55,020 bases of DNA from Pseudomonadota bacterium. Lineage in GTDB: Bacteria > Pseudomonadota > Gammaproteobacteria > JAADHS01. Numbering within the stretch: the stretch's first letter is position 1; each line of letters starts with the position of its first letter. The notes under the pieces were generated by a model, which searched no databases, had not been told where the DNA came from, and was given only the letters and a program-made list of their open reading frames with translations. Shown here one piece after another: positions 10,898 through 44,485 of this stretch. Position numbers and translations under genes: made by a program. The DNA is taken from assembly GCA_021821045.1 (NCBI GenBank), contig JAKACW010000029.1:1-55020 (forward strand). The letters are read 5' to 3'.

Positions 10898-11851
10898 CTA
10901 AGGGCATTTCACCCACGTGCCATCAACCAGTTCAACCTCGTGCTTGGCCCACTGTGCGAACTCGCGGCGGGTGCAGGTGCCGGTGGACTTGGCGCCGGCG
11001 CCGGCGCTGACGCGAAAGATGACGCGATCCTTCTCGGGGGTATCGATGCCCGACTCGTCGATGACCCGGCGTACTGCCCAGTCCGATCCGGTCCGACCGT
11101 TGCTGTAGAAGCGGCCCAGTACGATTTGCTCGGGGTTCATGCGCGCCGATTCGGCATGGTGCAGCGCCAACTCATAGATCTGTTGCAGATCTTGTTCGCT
11201 GATATCGACAAAGGACTCCATCTTGCGCAGGGCGTAGCGGATGTCGTTTTCGCCGATGGGGGAGCGCATTTCTTCGCCCACGTGGGGGAGGACGTCGGCG
11301 GGTTCTTTATGGCGTGCCAGGGCGGTGGGGTAGCGGCGCCACGGAAAAATGTAGTTGAAAATGACGCCAATTGCGATGATCGTGCAGGCATCGAGCATGA
11401 CTGGTGCGACAACGTATGCATAGCCCAAGTCGTGGACCGCCGGGCCGCCAACCACTGCGGCCAAGGCGGTTGCCCCGCCCGGTGGGTGCAGGCAGCGCAA
11501 ATAGTACATGACGAAGATTGCAAGCCCGACCGCGGCCGCAGCGGCAATCAGTGGGTTTTCCAGGTATTTGGCGCAGGTTACACCGATGGTGGCGCAGATG
11601 AATTGGCCTCCCAATAACGGCCAGGGCTGCGTTAGCGGACTATGGGGTACCGCGAACAGCAGCACCGCCGAGGCGCCCATGGAGGCGATGACCAGCGGCG
11701 TTCCTAAATCCGGAACAACTTGGTTGTTTACGCTACCTATTATATAAATCGCGATCAGCGCCCCTAGGCCGGAAATGAGCTTCTCGAAGTGGTGACCGGC
11801 CGGGGAGTCGATGTGCCAAGAGGCGAGTCGGGCGAGGAACTGCTTATACAT
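10898..11851 (-). CDS. HPP family integral membrane protein
   Basis: About 317 residues. The N-terminal half is an HPP domain with several membrane segments, the block LVIASMGASAVLLFAVP and the family-naming LHPPGGATAL. The C-terminal half is soluble and uncharacterised. HPP proteins are integral membrane proteins; some have been linked to nitrite transport in plastids and cyanobacteria, but the role here is unknown. The start is uncertain: the frame is open to a TTG at 12052, but the ATG at 11851 puts the N-terminus close to the HPP domain and leaves the divergent regulatory DNA free. No clear ribosome-binding site is seen for either. It is transcribed away from the PspA module. Confidence 0.8.
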   Translation of the reverse strand: MYKQFLARLASWHIDSPAGHHFEKLISGLGALIAIYIIGSVNNQVVPDLGTPLVIASMGASAVLLFAVPHSPLTQPWPLLGGQFICATIGVTCAKYLENPLIAAAAAVGLAIFVMYYLRCLHPPGGATALAAVVGGPAVHDLGYAYVVAPVMLDACTIIAIGVIFNYIFPWRRYPTALARHKEPADVLPHVGEEMRSPIGENDIRYALRKMESFVDISEQDLQQIYELALHHAESARMNPEQIVLGRFYSNGRTGSDWAVRRVIDESGIDTPEKDRVIFRVSAGAGAKSTGTCTRREFAQWAKHEVELVDGTWVKCP

Positions 11852-12148
11852 AGTTCTGTGCGAAAACCATTGGGCGTACAAATAATGTGCATAAAATACA
11901 CCAAATCCGGACGTTTGTCGCGCCCAGTCCGCTAATCGACTCGGCGTTTTGACAACGCTGCGACTCTTGGTATTCATAGAATGCATGTTACGATACATAT
12001 TATGTATGTCGATTGTCTGTCCAGACATCCGTCGAATTGGGGCGAGATCCAATAACTATCTGTTTATGAAAGAGACAATGTAATCCCGCAGCCATGGTAT
12101 AAAAATTGATATGTCCCTCATGTATAACCACACATGAGGAGTCTAGAA
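11852..12148. promoter_or_regulatory. divergent control region, HPP gene / PspA module
   Basis: It holds two perfect inverted repeats in tandem: ATACATA-T-TATGTAT (11993-12007) and TGTCTG-TC-CAGACA (12014-12027). About 80 bases further is a -24/-12-like element, TGG at 12095 and TTGA at 12106-12109, with the spacing of sigma-54 promoters but A instead of C in the -12 GC. The layout matches an enhancer-binding site plus a sigma-54 promoter, and a sigma-54 activator is encoded in the same operon. A sigma-70 reading with TATAAA (12098-12103) as -10 is also possible. Confidence 0.5.
12116..12139 (+). promoter_or_regulatory. palindrome covering the pspA ribosome-binding site
   Basis: CCTCATGT (12116-12123) and ACATGAGG (12132-12139) form a perfect 8-base inverted repeat with an 8-base loop. 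The 3' arm includes most of the pspA Shine-Dalgarno GAGGAG (12136-12141). In RNA it would mask the site; in DNA it could be an operator. Confidence 0.5.
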
Positions 12149-12808
12149 ATGTCTCTATTCAAACGCATCACAACCACGATATCCGCCCGGGTCGATCAGC
12201 TCGTCGGCGAGATCGAAAATCACGATGCCGTCGTCGAAGCGGCGATCAAGGACGCCCGCCAAGCCACGGCCAAGGCCAAGGTTCGACTGCAGCGCTTGAC
12301 CCAGGAGCGCCAGAAACTGGAGTCCCGCATCGACGGGCTGCGACAAAGGGAAATCGAATGGACGGAGCGGGCCCAACGCAGCGCGGAGCCGGACGAGGAC
12401 AAAGCACTGGCGTGTTTGCGTCGTCGTCGCGAATGCCAACGACAAATCGCCGAGTTGAGCGCGGCCGTGACCAAGCAGCGCGAGGCGGAAGAGAAGATAT
12501 CCGCCGACGTGCGTCAAGCGGAGACGCGTATAAATGAAATGAATCAAAAGCGCAGCCTGATGCGCACGCGAGAGTCGGCCGCCGAAGCCCTGGCTAATTT
12601 CAGCCGTCTGGATGAAGTTCAGTCCATCAACGTCGACGACACCTTCGATCGCTGGGAAATTCGCATCACTGAAGCCGAGACGCGGAACGGGACCAATCTG
12701 CAAAACGACGCCGTCGATTCCTTGGAGCGCGAGTTCATCGACACCGAGGAACGGGAGTCTCTTCGTTCGGAGCTCGCCGCACTGACGAAGGAGGTGGGTC
12801 GTGAGTAA
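12149..12808 (+). CDS. PspA/IM30 family phage-shock-like protein
   Basis: A 219-residue, highly charged, mostly helical and coiled-coil protein that starts MSLFKRITTTISARVDQLVG, the typical amphipathic PspA start. The segment QATAKAKVRLQRLTQERQKL matches the PspA/IM30 core. Such proteins bind and protect the cytoplasmic membrane and in some bacteria hold back a sigma-54 activator. The ATG at 12149 has GAGGAG 7-8 bases upstream. It is the first gene of a four-gene module; its stop overlaps the GTG start of the next gene by 8 bases. It is not close enough to enteric PspA to give it the same role with certainty. Confidence 0.83.
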   Translation: MSLFKRITTTISARVDQLVGEIENHDAVVEAAIKDARQATAKAKVRLQRLTQERQKLESRIDGLRQREIEWTERAQRSAEPDEDKALACLRRRRECQRQIAELSAAVTKQREAEEKISADVRQAETRINEMNQKRSLMRTRESAAEALANFSRLDEVQSINVDDTFDRWEIRITEAETRNGTNLQNDAVDSLEREFIDTEERESLRSELAALTKEVGRE

Positions 12809-14204
12809 TCTAGCGAACACTGCCACTGCGGACGCCGCCGACTGCGGTTCACCGGCGACCATTCAGGCCGGCGCAACCCGAAAACCCGTTGCACAAGATC
12901 CGTGGAAGGCCGAGGAGGCGCCAAGCCGCGGATTCGATTTTGCACTGCTGCCGCGAATTTTACGGGCGCTGGGCGGAACGACGCTGATCGCGTCCATTTC
13001 CATCTTTCTGCTGCAGGGCTGGGAAAACGGCAACGATGTTTTCCGCTATCTGTTGTTGCTCGGACATAGCGTGGTGTTAACCGCGATCGGTTTCGCCAGC
13101 GGTCACTATCTCAAGGAAAGCAAAGGTGCTCGCTTGCTGGTGACGCTGGCGCTGGCGTCGGTTCCGGCGAACTTCGCTATTCTCGGCGCGTTTATCTACT
13201 CGCTCGCTACCGCCGGCGGCGTGGACTTGCCGCAATTCGTGGTGTGGCAAGTGGATAACTGGACGACGCTTTCCATGACGCTCGCCGGCGCGGTGGTGCT
13301 AATGGCGCCGATGGTAGTGTTGGGGTTTATGGTCTTGGCCCGCAGCTCCGCGCTGCGTCTTAGCGGCGTGTTCCTGCTTGGCAACGCAGCGCTGCTTTTT
13401 CCGGCGCGGGATCCTGTAACGACCGCCGTGTTGATGCTGGCATTGACCGCCATGGCGCTGTGGGCCAACGCCCGCATCACCAAAGCGGATCCGACATTGC
13501 GCACCTGGGAAGGCTTGGTGGCGCGCGCGCTTCAATTTGCGCCCGTGGGCGTGGTGTTCGGGCGAACCGCGTGGCTTTACAGCGGTGATGCGTTTGTCTT
13601 TACGGCGATGTCGGTCATTGCGTTCGTTCTCCTGCGGCACTTTGCGCTGATGATGAAGCCGCAGAGTTCGTTGCGTGGATGGATGGAGAAGGCCTCGGTT
13701 GCGTCGTCGTTGACGACGGCTTACGGTGCCGTGTTTTGCGTCGATCGACTGGCCCCTGCGTTGACGGAAAGCGCGCTGCTGCCCTTGTTCGCATTTGTTT
13801 CTGCCGCGTTGGTGTTCGAAATCGGATTGCGTGCCGCCAACGGCGGAGCCGGCTATCGCCGTTTGGCCGCGGCCATGATTGCGCTTGGTCTGCTGGTGCA
13901 GCTTTGGATCGGCGGCAGCGTCGTCGTTGCGGCGATCTGCTTGGCGGCGGGGTTGGCCCTCGTCGTCTACGGCTACAGTGTGGAACAGCGAGTCGTTTTC
14001 GGACTGGGCGCTTTGCTGCTGTCCGTCGGATTGATTCATCAGATTCACTTTGCCATCACGACGTTTGATCTGGGCAGTTGGGGCAGTTTGGCCGTCCTGG
14101 GCGTCGTAGCGATTGTCGCGGGCTCGGCAGTGGAGCGTCATGGAGAGCGCGTCAAGGCGCAGATGGCGCTGTGGAAGAATCGGTTTCAGGGGTGGGAGTA
14201 CTGA
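12801..14204 (+). CDS. polytopic membrane protein of the PspA module
   Basis: A 467-residue protein with a soluble N-terminus of about 50 residues and then about 11-12 hydrophobic segments, ending in a short basic tail (KAQMALWKNRFQGWEY). I do not recognise a named family; the repeated hydrophobic layout recalls DUF2157/DUF4401-like membrane proteins, but this is only a resemblance. It starts with GTG at 12801, has a strong GGAGGTGGG upstream, and overlaps pspA by 8 bases, so translational coupling is likely. It may be the membrane partner of the PspA-like protein. Confidence 0.7.
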   Translation: MSNLANTATADAADCGSPATIQAGATRKPVAQDPWKAEEAPSRGFDFALLPRILRALGGTTLIASISIFLLQGWENGNDVFRYLLLLGHSVVLTAIGFASGHYLKESKGARLLVTLALASVPANFAILGAFIYSLATAGGVDLPQFVVWQVDNWTTLSMTLAGAVVLMAPMVVLGFMVLARSSALRLSGVFLLGNAALLFPARDPVTTAVLMLALTAMALWANARITKADPTLRTWEGLVARALQFAPVGVVFGRTAWLYSGDAFVFTAMSVIAFVLLRHFALMMKPQSSLRGWMEKASVASSLTTAYGAVFCVDRLAPALTESALLPLFAFVSAALVFEIGLRAANGGAGYRRLAAAMIALGLLVQLWIGGSVVVAAICLAAGLALVVYGYSVEQRVVFGLGALLLSVGLIHQIHFAITTFDLGSWGSLAVLGVVAIVAGSAVERHGERVKAQMALWKNRFQGWEY

Positions 14205-14223
14205 TTCGCGCAAAGAGAGTGAG

Positions 14224-14252
14224 CGGCCGCGACCGGGACGTTGCGGCCGTTT
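14224..14252 (+). terminator. intra-operon hairpin, possible attenuator
   Basis: CGGCCGC (14224-14230) and GCGGCCG (14243-14249) form a 7-base GC stem with a 12-base loop, followed by only TTT. It lies between the membrane protein gene and the lipoprotein gene. The short T-run makes it a weak or partial terminator or an mRNA processing site. Confidence 0.4.
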
Positions 14253-14291
14253 GCGAATGTTTCCCCAGATCAAAGTAATGTGAGGTGGAAT

Positions 14292-15191
14292 ATGACTCTG
14301 CGAAAGTTGTTCAAGTTGTTTCTATGTGTTGCTCTTGTCGCGTTTCTCGCCGGCTGCGCAATGCAGCCCAAACAGCGAATGCGCAGCAGCGTGGTGGAGT
14401 ATCTCTACCCCGAAAAAGATGTGGTGGAAAGTCCGTCGATTCCGACGCTGAGACTGCCCATCGACGTGGGAATAGCGTTTGTTCCTGGTGATACCGTGGG
14501 CGGCGGCCAGTCGAACTTTTGGGTTGGATCGATCGATCCGATGTATCAAAGCGAAAATCAGAAAATGGAGCTGCTGGAAACGGTCGCGGCGCATTTCAAG
14601 CAATACAATTTCGTTCGAAACATCGAAATCATCCCCAGCGCCTATCTGCGTCCGAAGGGCGGGTTCGAGAATCTTGACCAGATCAGAACGATGTACGGCG
14701 TCGACGTCGTTGCGCTGGTGTCGTACGATCAGGTCCAGTTTACCGATGAGGACATCCTGTCACTGACGTATTGGACGCTAGTGGGCGCCTATGTGGTTGA
14801 GGGCGAAAAGAACGACACGCAGACCTTGATGGACACGGCTGTGTACGAAGTGGAAAGTAAGAAGTTGCTGTTTCGGGCGCCCGGCGCATCCAGAGTAAAG
14901 GGCCGTTCAACGGTCGTGAACCTGAGTGAAGAGCTGCGCGCTGACAGCAGGAAAGGCTTCGACGAGGCCACCTCCGAAATGGTTGCGAACCTTGATGCCC
15001 AGCTCGGCAAATTCAAGGAGCGTGTGAAAGAACGGCCCAACGAATACAGCGTCGAGTATCGTCCCGGTTTCCAAGGCGGCGGTGCGTTTGGCTGGAGTAC
15101 GCTGATGGTTTTGCTGGGGGTGCTGGCGTGGCGGCTGTCCCTTGCGGGGCGCGGAGAGAGTCGAACAGGGGGTGGGTGTGGCTGGGAGTAG
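14292..15191 (+). CDS. rhombotarget lipoprotein with GlyGly-CTERM-like tail
   Basis: A 299-residue lipoprotein: basic start MTLRKLFK, hydrophobic core and lipobox FLAGC (Cys22, followed by Ala, which favours the outer membrane). The middle part is a globular domain of unknown function. Near the C-terminus GGGAFGWSTLMVLLGVLAWR has the small-residue motif, hydrophobic helix and Arg of GlyGly-CTERM sorting tails, though an extra 18 residues follow. This arrangement matches the family known as rhombotarget lipoproteins, substrates of rhombosortase. The ATG at 14292 has GAGGTGG upstream. The stop overlaps the sigma-54 activator gene. Double anchoring, then release of the C-terminal end by a rhombosortase, is an inference. 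Confidence 0.8.
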   Translation: MTLRKLFKLFLCVALVAFLAGCAMQPKQRMRSSVVEYLYPEKDVVESPSIPTLRLPIDVGIAFVPGDTVGGGQSNFWVGSIDPMYQSENQKMELLETVAAHFKQYNFVRNIEIIPSAYLRPKGGFENLDQIRTMYGVDVVALVSYDQVQFTDEDILSLTYWTLVGAYVVEGEKNDTQTLMDTAVYEVESKKLLFRAPGASRVKGRSTVVNLSEELRADSRKGFDEATSEMVANLDAQLGKFKERVKERPNEYSVEYRPGFQGGGAFGWSTLMVLLGVLAWRLSLAGRGESRTGGGCGWE

Positions 15192-16665
15192 ACCGTTGCA
15201 CGGCGAGCTTAGAGCGTTTTTTCAGCGTTTCACAGATGTAATCTTTGCCAATCCGTTCAGTTCGACCGTTGAGCAAGTGGAACAGTGGCTTGGCGTGAAA
15301 GTGGATGCGCCCATCCAGTCGGGCCACCACTATGCCGCACTGGCGCCGCTTGCCCAGGCGAAGCTCGCCCAGCTTAATGATTCGGGAATCGCCAAAGTCC
15401 AGGACTGCGCCGCGAATGATCGTCAGCTTATCCTGTATGTGTTCCTGTTTGAACTATATGACCAGTACGCTTCCCCGTTCGACGGTTTAATCGCAGCTCA
15501 GTTGAAAAAGGGGGACGAACCAGCCGATGTCCCGTTCGCGCAGGAGCTGATGTTCAAGTTCAAAGAGCGCGGGCTCAGCGAAGCGGAAGCCGCGCGCTAC
15601 ATGGCCCTGTTTTATCAACTGCGCCGCGCACACTTTTTCATCTCCAAGGGTTTGATCGGCGCGTCGGCGAGCATGAAAGCGCTACGCCACGCGTTGTGGA
15701 ACAACCTATTCACCGCCGACGTGCGTTACTACGCAGAACATCTGTGGGATCGCATGGAGGACTTCTCGACACTGTTGTTGGGCGAAACAGGCACCGGCAA
15801 AGGCTCGGCGGCGGCGGCGATAGGGCGCTCCGGTTTGATACCCTTTGATCCTGTCGCGGGACGTTTCAAGTACAGTTTCACCGCAACGTTTATCGCCACC
15901 AACCTGTCCCAGTTTCCCGAGAGTCTGATCGAGTCCGAGTTGTTCGGTCATCGCAAGGGTGCGTTTACGGGAGCGATCGACAATCACGCCGGGTTGTTCG
16001 AACGGTGCAGCCCGCACGGGGCGTTGTTCCTCGATGAAATCGGCGATGTATCTATCCCGGTGCAAATCAAGTTGCTCAATGTTCTCCAAGAGCGGCGCTT
16101 CTGCCCAGTCGGAGGCCATAAGATCCAGCGTTTTCAGGGGCGCGTCATCGCCGCGACCAACAAGACGTTGGACAAATTGCGTCAAACGGGAGAATTTCGC
16201 GACGACTTCTATTACCGTCTTTCCTCCGACGTGATCCATGTGCCGCCGCTGCGCACCCGCCTGCAGGAGGCGCCGGACGAATTGGAGCGGTTGGTTGGCT
16301 TGTTGGTTGAACGGCTGACGGGGGAGGTGGATCATGAATTGATCGATAAAGTGATGTCGGCGCTTGCGGCCGGGGTTCCGCGCGGCTACCCATGGCCGGG
16401 CAACGTGCGTGAATTGGAACAAACCGTGCGGCGCGTCATCTTAAACGGCGATTGTGCCGTCGAACAGCGCGGCGGACCCACTGCCACTTGGCTCGACGCC
16501 GCCGACAAGGGCAGTCTAAGTGCCCATGATCTCCTTGCCGCGTATTGTCGAATGTTGTATGACCGCCACCGCAGTTATGAGGATGTGGCCTCGATTACCC
16601 AACTGAACTGGCGCACGGTAAAAAAGTACATTGGACCGAACGATGAATCAAACGTCCCCGGCTAG
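15178..16665 (+). CDS. sigma-54-dependent activator of the PspA module
   Basis: About 495 residues. A helical N-terminal domain of some 190 residues has no receiver, GAF or PAS features that I can see. It is followed by an AAA+ sigma-54 interaction domain: Walker A GETGTGKGS (202-210), the sigma-54 contact loop GAFTGA (261-266), Walker B ALFLDEIGD (282-290) and the segment YPWPGNVRELEQ. A C-terminal helix-turn-helix follows (SYEDVASITQLNWRTVKKYI). The likely start is GTG at 15178, behind a GGGGGTGGG; an ATG at 15142 is also in frame. It overlaps the lipoprotein gene by 14 bases and miaA by 23. It probably controls its own operon. Confidence 0.88.
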   Translation: MAGSRPLHGELRAFFQRFTDVIFANPFSSTVEQVEQWLGVKVDAPIQSGHHYAALAPLAQAKLAQLNDSGIAKVQDCAANDRQLILYVFLFELYDQYASPFDGLIAAQLKKGDEPADVPFAQELMFKFKERGLSEAEAARYMALFYQLRRAHFFISKGLIGASASMKALRHALWNNLFTADVRYYAEHLWDRMEDFSTLLLGETGTGKGSAAAAIGRSGLIPFDPVAGRFKYSFTATFIATNLSQFPESLIESELFGHRKGAFTGAIDNHAGLFERCSPHGALFLDEIGDVSIPVQIKLLNVLQERRFCPVGGHKIQRFQGRVIAATNKTLDKLRQTGEFRDDFYYRLSSDVIHVPPLRTRLQEAPDELERLVGLLVERLTGEVDHELIDKVMSALAAGVPRGYPWPGNVRELEQTVRRVILNGDCAVEQRGGPTATWLDAADKGSLSAHDLLAAYCRMLYDRHRSYEDVASITQLNWRTVKKYIGPNDESNVPG

Positions 16666-17608
16666 CTCCGCCAACTGGGCCCCGCCGCGGGTTATCGCCA
16701 TTATGGGGCCCACCGCGTGCGGCAAGAGCAGCGTGGCCGAGGCCATCTGTCGTCAGCGGCCTTGCGAAATTGTCAGCGTCGATTCGGCTTTGGTATATCG
16801 CGGCATGGATATCGGGACGGCGAAGCCTTCGCCGGCGATTCGCCAGGAGATTCCGCATCACCTGATTGATGTTCTCGATCCCGAGCAGTCCTTCTCGGCG
16901 GCTGAGTTCGCCAATGCAGCCCTGCGGGCCATCGCGCAGATCCACTCTCGCGGCAACGTCCCGTTGCTCGTGGGCGGAACCATGCTGTATTTTCGCGCGC
17001 TGCTTGAAGGTTTGGCGCCGCTGCCCGCAGCGTCGGAGAGTGTTCGCGCCCGTCTGGTCGAAGAGACTGCGACTCTTGGTCTGGAGGCGCTGCATCGACG
17101 CTTGGCCGAGGTCGATCCCGTTTCCGCTCAGCGAATTCACAAGAACGATCCCCAGCGGATTCAGCGTGCATTGGAGGTTTACGAAGTGACGGGGCGTCCG
17201 CTGAGCGACGCATGGCGCGAGGCGGAGAGATACGTATTTCCATACCCGTTGACAAGGATTGTTCTGTGGCTGCCTGATCGCGCTAAGCTTCATCGGCGAA
17301 TCGCTCAGCGTTTGGACGACATGTTTGCCGCCGGGTTCGTCGATGAAGTTGCGCGATTGCGAGGGCGCCCGGGCCTGACGGCGGATATGCCCAGCATGCG
17401 GGCGGTCGGCTATCGCCAAGTGTGGGAGTATCTTGCAGCGGAAACCGATTCCGAGACGATGCGCCAGCGTGCGTTATTCGCCACGCGTCAGCTTGCCAAG
17501 CGACAAATGACGTGGCTCAGGCAAGTGCACAATGCGCGTTGGATTGAAGCGGATAGCGAGCAAATTGTTGAGTATGTCTTGAAAATTCTCGACGCGGCCC
17601 CATGTTAA
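16643..17608 (+). CDS. miaA: tRNA dimethylallyltransferase MiaA
   Basis: A 321-residue enzyme that transfers the dimethylallyl group from DMAPP to A37 of tRNAs reading UNN codons. It has the P-loop GPTACGKSS (22-30), the VSVDSALVYRGMDIGTAKPS block, LVGGTMLYFRALLEGLAPLP and the RQLAKRQMTWLRQ stretch, all characteristic of MiaA. The ATG at 16643 lies 23 bases inside the preceding activator gene and has GGA 7-8 bases upstream. hfq follows after 292 bases, the order known from many gammaproteobacteria, but the usual mutL neighbour is replaced by the PspA module. Confidence 0.94.
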   Translation: MNQTSPASSANWAPPRVIAIMGPTACGKSSVAEAICRQRPCEIVSVDSALVYRGMDIGTAKPSPAIRQEIPHHLIDVLDPEQSFSAAEFANAALRAIAQIHSRGNVPLLVGGTMLYFRALLEGLAPLPAASESVRARLVEETATLGLEALHRRLAEVDPVSAQRIHKNDPQRIQRALEVYEVTGRPLSDAWREAERYVFPYPLTRIVLWLPDRAKLHRRIAQRLDDMFAAGFVDEVARLRGRPGLTADMPSMRAVGYRQVWEYLAAETDSETMRQRALFATRQLAKRQMTWLRQVHNARWIEADSEQIVEYVLKILDAAPC

Positions 17609-43784: not shown

Positions 43785-43808
43785 GTGGGAGCGGTTTCCT
43801 ACCGCGAT
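43785..43808 (+). repeat. REP-like unit overlapping the rhombosortase 3' end
   Basis: A complete unit with GTGGGAGCGG head and GCGGT/ACCGC stem. It supplies the stop codon and the last codons of the minus-strand rhombosortase (stop at 43799-43801). Confidence 0.87.
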
Positions 43809-44461
43809 GTTCCGCCCGAATCATCCTCTGCCTCGGGTTTATTGCGAGCGGATCCGCCGCCGTCGAATTTTTTCTTGTAAGCCCATTCCGCCAGACTGAA
43901 AACCAGACCGCCGATCGCTCCGTAAAGATGAGCATCCACCACCACCGGGCCACCCGCGGCGCTTTCGGAGCCCGGCAGCGGGCCGTTGATTTGCTCCCAA
44001 ACCAGTTTCACCGCGAGCGCCAGCAATAACAAACCCTCCAAGCGCAGCCCGCGCCGCCAGCTGGCGACGGCCCCGGTGACGAACAGCCCGTGCAGGACGC
44101 CCGACAATCCAACGTACCAATTCAATTTCGGCAGAAAAAAGTACAGTCCGCTGCTGACGAAGAGGGCGCTCACTAGAAAGCAGCCGGCCCACGCCAGCGG
44201 GGGCATGACGGGCGCGAACAGCAGCGAGATCAACGCCAAGCCGGCCAAGTTGAGCAGCAGATGAGACGTGCCTAAATGAGCGAAATGGCCGCTGAGCAGA
44301 CGCCACACTTCACCGCTGTGGATGGCCGAACGGTCGAACTGTGTTACCTGGGTTGCGGCGTCGCCCATCGCCGCGATGGCGATGCTGATCAGGGCTACAA
44401 CGGCGGGCAAGATAAACGGCGTGAGGGATCTCGGGCCCATCGATTCATGTGGACCTAGCAT
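43799..44461 (-). CDS. rhombosortase (GlyGly-CTERM sorting protease)
   Basis: A 220-residue intramembrane serine protease of the rhomboid family. Conserved EVWRLLSGHFAHLGTSHLLL with H59, H62 and H67, catalytic S120 in WYVGLSGVLHGLF, and catalytic H178 in DAHLYGAIGGL. Six helices, the small size and sequence match rhombosortase, which removes GlyGly-CTERM tails. The ATG at 44461 has AGGAG 5 bases upstream. A likely substrate, the rhombotarget lipoprotein, is encoded at 14.3-15.2 kb. The C-terminal residues TSR and the stop come from a REP unit. Confidence 0.9.
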   Translation of the reverse strand: MLGPHESMGPRSLTPFILPAVVALISIAIAAMGDAATQVTQFDRSAIHSGEVWRLLSGHFAHLGTSHLLLNLAGLALISLLFAPVMPPLAWAGCFLVSALFVSSGLYFFLPKLNWYVGLSGVLHGLFVTGAVASWRRGLRLEGLLLLALAVKLVWEQINGPLPGSESAAGGPVVVDAHLYGAIGGLVFSLAEWAYKKKFDGGGSARNKPEAEDDSGGTSR

Positions 44462-44485
44462 ACTCACTCCTGCAATGGGTTCCCG

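Follow-up and report, generated by a model that had tools for sequence, protein, structure and literature searches.

Among the closest described systems is pspABC/pspF of Escherichia coli, in which PspA binds PspF through a contact that depends on W56 of PspF (PMC3128695). Other PspA neighbourhoods, in which PspA is accompanied by membrane partners including the DUF2157-containing LiaF, have been described by Popp et al. (2022; PMC9239133) and Ravi et al. (2024; PMC11237479), and the latter include operons with NtrC-like activators carrying ACT and PAS domains. The type reported here is not among these, and the main text of neither paper mentions rhombosortase or GlyGly-CTERM lipoproteins; the open-licence literature yielded no paper on the activator family described below, nor on PspA with rhombotarget lipoproteins.

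The window, a stretch of 55,020 nucleotides from a gammaproteobacterial genome, carries at 12149-16665 four genes on the same strand, identified by the open reading frame list and profile searches as pspA, a membrane protein gene, a rhombotarget lipoprotein gene and a sigma-54 activator gene (Table 1); their succession and positions are as the earlier note had described, and the rhombosortase gene of the window, the operator and the sigma-54-like promoter are additional to what the note had seen. The locus resembles pspABC/pspF in combining a PspA-family effector, a sigma-54-like promoter element before pspA and an AAA+ activator with a GAFTGA motif, but here the activator is encoded by the last gene of the operon and has an N-terminal domain of about 190 residues that PspF lacks, and a polytopic membrane protein and a sorted lipoprotein are found instead of pspB and pspC. 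The AAA+ module also scores well against the model of RtcR, a CARF-domain sigma-54 activator; the N-terminal domain of the window protein is, by contrast, all-helical where the CARF domain is Rossmann-like, and the gene neighbourhoods differ. As in rhombosortase/GlyGly-CTERM sorting, the window encodes both a TIGR04179 lipoprotein and a TIGR03902 rhombosortase, and the genome encodes other GlyGly-CTERM proteins, but the lipoprotein gene belongs to the PspA operon rather than lying beside the rhombosortase gene. We consider it fairly probable that the locus is a self-contained, positively autoregulated sigma-54 envelope-stress operon, a reading in which the genes, the operator, the promoter-like element and the genomic contexts are seen in the sequence and from which we infer binding, activation, autoregulation and the signal. 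The main interest of the locus lies in its activator, from a family of enhancer-binding proteins that is uncharacterised and has an operator of its own, and which in the lineage of the window probably drives a PspA operon.

Table 1. Features of the PspA locus and the rhombosortase gene in the window
Feature	Position	Strand	Description
Operator-like site 1	11972..11986		ATTCATAGAATGCAT, 2 mismatches to ATACAT-N3-ATGTAT
Operator-like site 2	11993..12007		ATACATATTATGTAT, only perfect copy in the 4.5-Mb host genome
Sigma-54-like -24/-12 element	12095..12110	+	TGGTATAAAAATTGAT, before pspA, with A instead of C at position -12
Inverted repeat	12116..12139		CCTCATGT-N8-ACATGAGG, perfect 8-bp, over the pspA ribosome-binding site
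PspA/IM30-family protein	12149..12808	+	ATG 12149, further in-frame ATG at 12134; PF04012, 58.3 bits
Polytopic membrane protein	12801..14204	+	GTG start, 467 aa; sub-threshold DUF2157-like
Rhombotarget lipoprotein	14292..15191	+	ATG 14292; ORF list starts at TTG 14241; TIGR04179
Sigma-54 activator	15142..16665	+	Orphan all-helical N-terminal domain, AAA+ with GAFTGA
Rhombosortase	43799..44467	-	TIGR03902, 161-162 bits (equivalog cut-off 84)

Two of the three junctions between the four genes overlap, as the note had it: pspA and the membrane protein gene by 8 bp, and the lipoprotein and activator genes depending on the choice of start. Of the candidate activator starts, TTG 15142 and GTG 15178 lie within the lipoprotein gene and TTG 15196 abuts it, all leading to the stop at 16665; 15178 or 15196 is more likely than 15142. 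The membrane protein gene is separated from the lipoprotein ATG by 87 nt. Downstream follow miaA, hfq and hflX, in agreement with the earlier observation that the genes occupy the place before miaA where mutL often sits, and an intact mutL is present elsewhere in the host genome. The miaA gene probably starts at ATG 16643, overlapping the activator gene; given this overlap with the activator stop (16643-16665), sigma-54-dependent transcription could read through into miaA-hfq-hflX and increase their expression under stress. Divergent from pspA lies a gene for an HPP-family membrane protein (10898-12052, minus strand), whose longest reading frame crosses the operator, so that its true start is probably further downstream.

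The operator was derived by an inverted-repeat search in the upstream regions of members of the activator family. The repeat TACAT-N3-ATGTA recurred in 13 of these regions, compared with at most two for any repeat in one shuffled set, and its extended form ATACAT-N3-ATGTAT was found within two mismatches in 44 of 72 regions (1.9 expected) and within one mismatch in 19 of them (0.1 expected), many regions having two sites about 22 bp apart. In the window the two sites are 21 bp apart, at -177 and -156 relative to pspA; the homologous locus L101/L049 likewise has a pair, spaced by 22 bp, at -178 and -156. Elsewhere in the host genome the sole site within one mismatch falls inside an ileS-like reading frame, and neither of the two host Aas loci has an operator site, so the regulon looks local.

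The perfect operator copy stands 96 bp upstream of the sigma-54-like promoter. With a hand-built, untrained matrix, the latter scored 8.0 (p=0.008 against shuffles of the 97-bp region); the element is weak, with TAT for CAC and GA for GC, and scores of this size are nothing out of the ordinary over the window as a whole. The same scan recovered the E. coli pspA promoter (TGGCACGCAAATTGTA) as a control and gave 13.6 (p=0.002) for the equivalent element of L049/L101, TGGCACAGAACTTGGA, whose -24 element lies at -55 from pspA, compared with -54 in the window. Eleven loci with PspA and the membrane protein and without the activator had no comparable promoter (best score 6.9), several of them having a divergent XRE gene in its stead. 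The promoter architecture of the window recurs in a single close relative, L101/G109. Sigma-54 promoters of the form TGGCAC-N5-TTGCW precede most of the genes that diverge from the activator in the family, and one lies 64 nt upstream of the lipoprotein gene of L118. The inverted repeat at the pspA ribosome-binding site of the window is a possible translation control.

The activator was recognized by Sigma54_activat (PF00158; 148.9 bits) and has a Walker A motif, GETGTGKG, in addition to GAFTGA. It scored 156 bits against the PspF model TIGR02974, below the equivalog cut-off of 443.55, and 176.6 bits against the RtcR model NF038308 (cut-off 650), the match being confined to the AAA+ region. No Pfam HTH match was obtained; a conserved C-terminal segment, SYEDVA..RTVKKYI, looks like a helix-turn-helix, and the family has an operator. 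In line with the note's suggestion that the helical N-terminal domain of about 190 residues may be new, it had no known domain in profile searches, no consistent Pfam match among 69 members, no sequence relative with a solved structure and no Foldseek match in the PDB at E<=0.001. The predicted structure is confidently all-helical (pLDDT 90), and the family alignment has invariant NPF, W171 and LW.RMED positions. No structural identity was called from the best VIA match (Z 3.7), in a list rich in TetR-like helical proteins. The activator belongs to what appears to be an undescribed family of enhancer-binding proteins, whose all-helical N-terminal domain is an orphan.

The PspA protein is a member of the PspA/IM30 family (PF04012, residues 7-220, cut-off 33.9), the only one in the host genome, and scores 50.6 bits against the model of canonical proteobacterial PspA, TIGR02977, below its equivalog cut-off of 242.95. 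For its neighbour, to which the note had assigned 11-12 helices, hydropathy gives roughly 10-12 hydrophobic segments, and the match to DUF2157 (PF09925) reaches 18.7 bits, below the gathering score of 32.4, with weak matches in 4 of 13 homologues. The two proteins are an old pair and a stable core: pspA is immediately upstream in all 12 loci with a full-length membrane protein gene. The lipoprotein scored 332.6 bits against TIGR04179 (equivalog cut-off 150) and is thus a rhombotarget lipoprotein, with the lipobox LAGC and a C-terminal GGG followed by a hydrophobic segment and arginines; the protein, for which the note had pointed out a GlyGly-CTERM-like tail, belongs to a rhombosortase-sorted family. 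A genome search with the C-terminal 22-residue GlyGly-CTERM model TIGR03501 (E<=0.01) returned two other proteins and not this one, the tail of which fits GlyGly-CTERM by eye and is covered by TIGR04179. An AlphaFold2 model of the lipoprotein (pLDDT 39.5, two-sequence alignment) was discarded. The processing and sorting enzyme of the lipoprotein is likely to be the rhombosortase encoded 28 kb away in the window; in other genomes the two genes are adjacent in seven cases. The rhombosortase gene of the window adjoins glnD and dapC-dapD-dapE, with no evident target gene adjacent.

The complete set of four genes was found in no surveyed genome except the window's own, so that the surveys do not bear out a strict module of the kind the note had proposed; what stands of that proposal is one operon with its own sigma-54 activator, subsets of which recur in G109, G070 and L118. 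In a class-wide sample the lipoprotein family exceeded the cut-off in 16 of 370 genomes, the membrane protein was present in 15 of 342 and the activator N-terminal domain in 4 of 342; among 114 close relatives, the activator occurs in the host genome and G086 only. G109, the only surveyed relative with the activator plus PspA, has pspA, the membrane protein gene, a lipid-hydroxylase-like gene and an activator gene (60% identical), and G070 has pspA, the membrane protein gene and the rhombotarget lipoprotein gene. The gene pairings exceed chance.

When 84,980 species genomes were searched with three aligned N-terminal domains, 75 loci of the activator family came to light in at least eight phyla, represented by Gammaproteobacteria, Thermodesulfobacteriota, Myxococcota, Planctomycetota, Nitrospirota, Verrucomicrobiota, Lentisphaerota and Acidobacteriota. 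Sedimenticola hydrogenitrophicus, Trichlorobacter thiogenes and Desulfopila aestuarii are cultured, non-pathogenic bacteria among the hosts. The activator gene is often opposite a divergent operon, and the commonest facing genes are the LplT/Aas phospholipid-repair genes, followed by rhombosortase with a surface protein. An LplT/Aas-type acyltransferase is encoded in 30 of the 75 loci (26 confirmed by its acyltransferase domain), a rhombosortase-like protein in 12, a VIT/VWA protein in 12 and a CDP-alcohol phosphatidyltransferase in four; in 35 loci no lipid or sorting gene of those looked for came up, partly owing to the many short contigs. In L118 (Nitrospiraceae) the divergent operon encodes a rhombotarget lipoprotein, 49% identical to that of the window, and a rhombosortase, with Aas on the other side; the L118 activator is far from that of the window in the tree, so that the two genes have probably come together on two or more separate occasions.

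Several other neighbours recur. VIT/VWA proteins of L108 (5744-7843), L116 (5691-7796), L133 (5728-7803) and other loci have a common tail, G(S/T)GPVGPLF...W(L/I).RR(K/R), and their genes adjoin a rhombosortase-like gene; this tail could be a C-terminal sorting signal of a type not yet described, served by its own rhombosortase. In L126, L129, L135, L136, L146, L150 and L164 the activator faces genes for B12-binding radical SAM proteins, accompanied in some of these loci by BadF/BadG-like or other genes. An Amidohydro_2 protein whose N-terminal part has a conserved AGIG(A/S)GGSGC-like motif is encoded in L118 (12905-14017), L134 (6759-7859) and 12 other loci, often next to Aas and the activator.

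The note had also suggested the N-terminal domain as the contact with PspA or the membrane protein. A PspA contact is unlikely as a function of the family: pspA is nearby in one of the 75 loci, and of six genomes checked that have the activator and no PspA at the locus, five (G086 and those of L118, L139, L133 and L104) have no PspA_IM30 gene, so that PspA cannot be the general partner of this domain. These observations equally count against a PspF-like feedback, in which PspA would inhibit the activator directly, through the N-terminal domain or the AAA+ surface, until released by stress. There is a precedent in E. coli PspA-PspF (PMC3128695), PspA and the activator share an operon in the window and in G109, and BLASTP places a phenylalanine (or threonine) near W56, in a gapped region; W56 itself appears unconserved, and we regard such feedback as unlikely. 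A lineage-specific PspA effect may be exerted via the AAA+ domain alone.

Similarly unlikely, in our estimate, is a chance joining of two independent units, an old pair of PspA and membrane protein and a later unit of lipoprotein and activator. The stability of the former pair, the more usual company of the lipoprotein with rhombosortase than with PspA and the occurrence of lipoprotein and activator together in Nitrospirota all fit such an origin, but G070 combines the pair with the lipoprotein and G109 combines it with the activator, the fourth gene being absent in both cases, and the operator is upstream of pspA, not of the lipoprotein gene. Still less probable is that the activator is a general or distant regulator which merely lies downstream of pspA, the operon being under another promoter. 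The weakness of the -24/-12 element, the gap before the lipoprotein gene, which allows a separate transcript, and the presence of the activator without PspA in G086 and other genomes would be compatible with this; against it stand the position of the genome's sole perfect operator copy upstream of pspA, the operator spacing conserved in L101 and a simple sigma-70 scan of 11800-16800, which found no promoter on the plus strand.

Under the autoregulated operon that we favour, the activator would bind the two palindromic sites (11972-12007) as an enhancer some 96 bp before the -24/-12 promoter (12095-12110) and, on registering membrane-lipid disturbance through its N-terminal helical domain, would drive pspA, the membrane protein gene, the lipoprotein gene and its own gene. 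PspA would then stabilise the inner membrane with its polytopic partner, whose role is presumed, and the rhombosortase encoded at 43799-44467 would sort the lipoprotein, whose role is likewise presumed, within the envelope.

Membrane-lipid state is our best guess for the signal, drawn from gene neighbourhoods. LplT and Aas flip and re-acylate lysophospholipids (PMC11416262), and rhombosortase targets of Vibrio cholerae carry a joined glycerophosphoethanolamine moiety (PMC6219818). In three gammaproteobacterial loci (L050, L051 and L053) the pspA and membrane protein operon lies opposite an XRE regulator gene, behind which come Aas and LplT; in L061 the XRE-Aas-LplT set lies beside a remnant of the membrane protein gene, and L055 and L056 are more distant cases of a facing XRE gene. 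At loci that lack the sigma-54 activator, this XRE-type protein may act as regulator. L029 has the lipoprotein and rhombosortase genes beside Aas and LplT, and in G109 a VIT-like protein gene faces TetR-Aas-LplT. In one genome or another, then, genes of lysophospholipid recycling adjoin those for PspA, the lipoprotein, rhombosortase or the activator, which points to membrane-lipid state as the signal. Since the family appears to control other membrane-repair or surface-sorting genes in other phyla, it is probably the state of the lipids or the envelope, and not PspA, that the activator senses.

A tentative generalisation, which we hold to be possible rather than probable, is that a cross-phylum family with a helical sensor domain of a new kind reads membrane-lipid damage, such as lysophospholipid or free acyl chains, and through a common operator commands interchangeable repair kits: lysophospholipid recycling, rhombosortase-sorted surface proteins and, in the lineage of the window, PspA. 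The PspA operon gives rhombotarget lipoproteins, so far named by sequence only, a physiological setting. The signal of PspA-type responses is still debated, and a regulator family whose one operator links PspA with lysophospholipid recycling and with rhombosortase sorting opens a direct and testable route to it; as PspA is absent from some of the genomes that have the activator, sensing can be examined there independently of PspA. The neighbours of family members in many phyla suggest that bacteria have a further, new means of sensing damage to their envelope.
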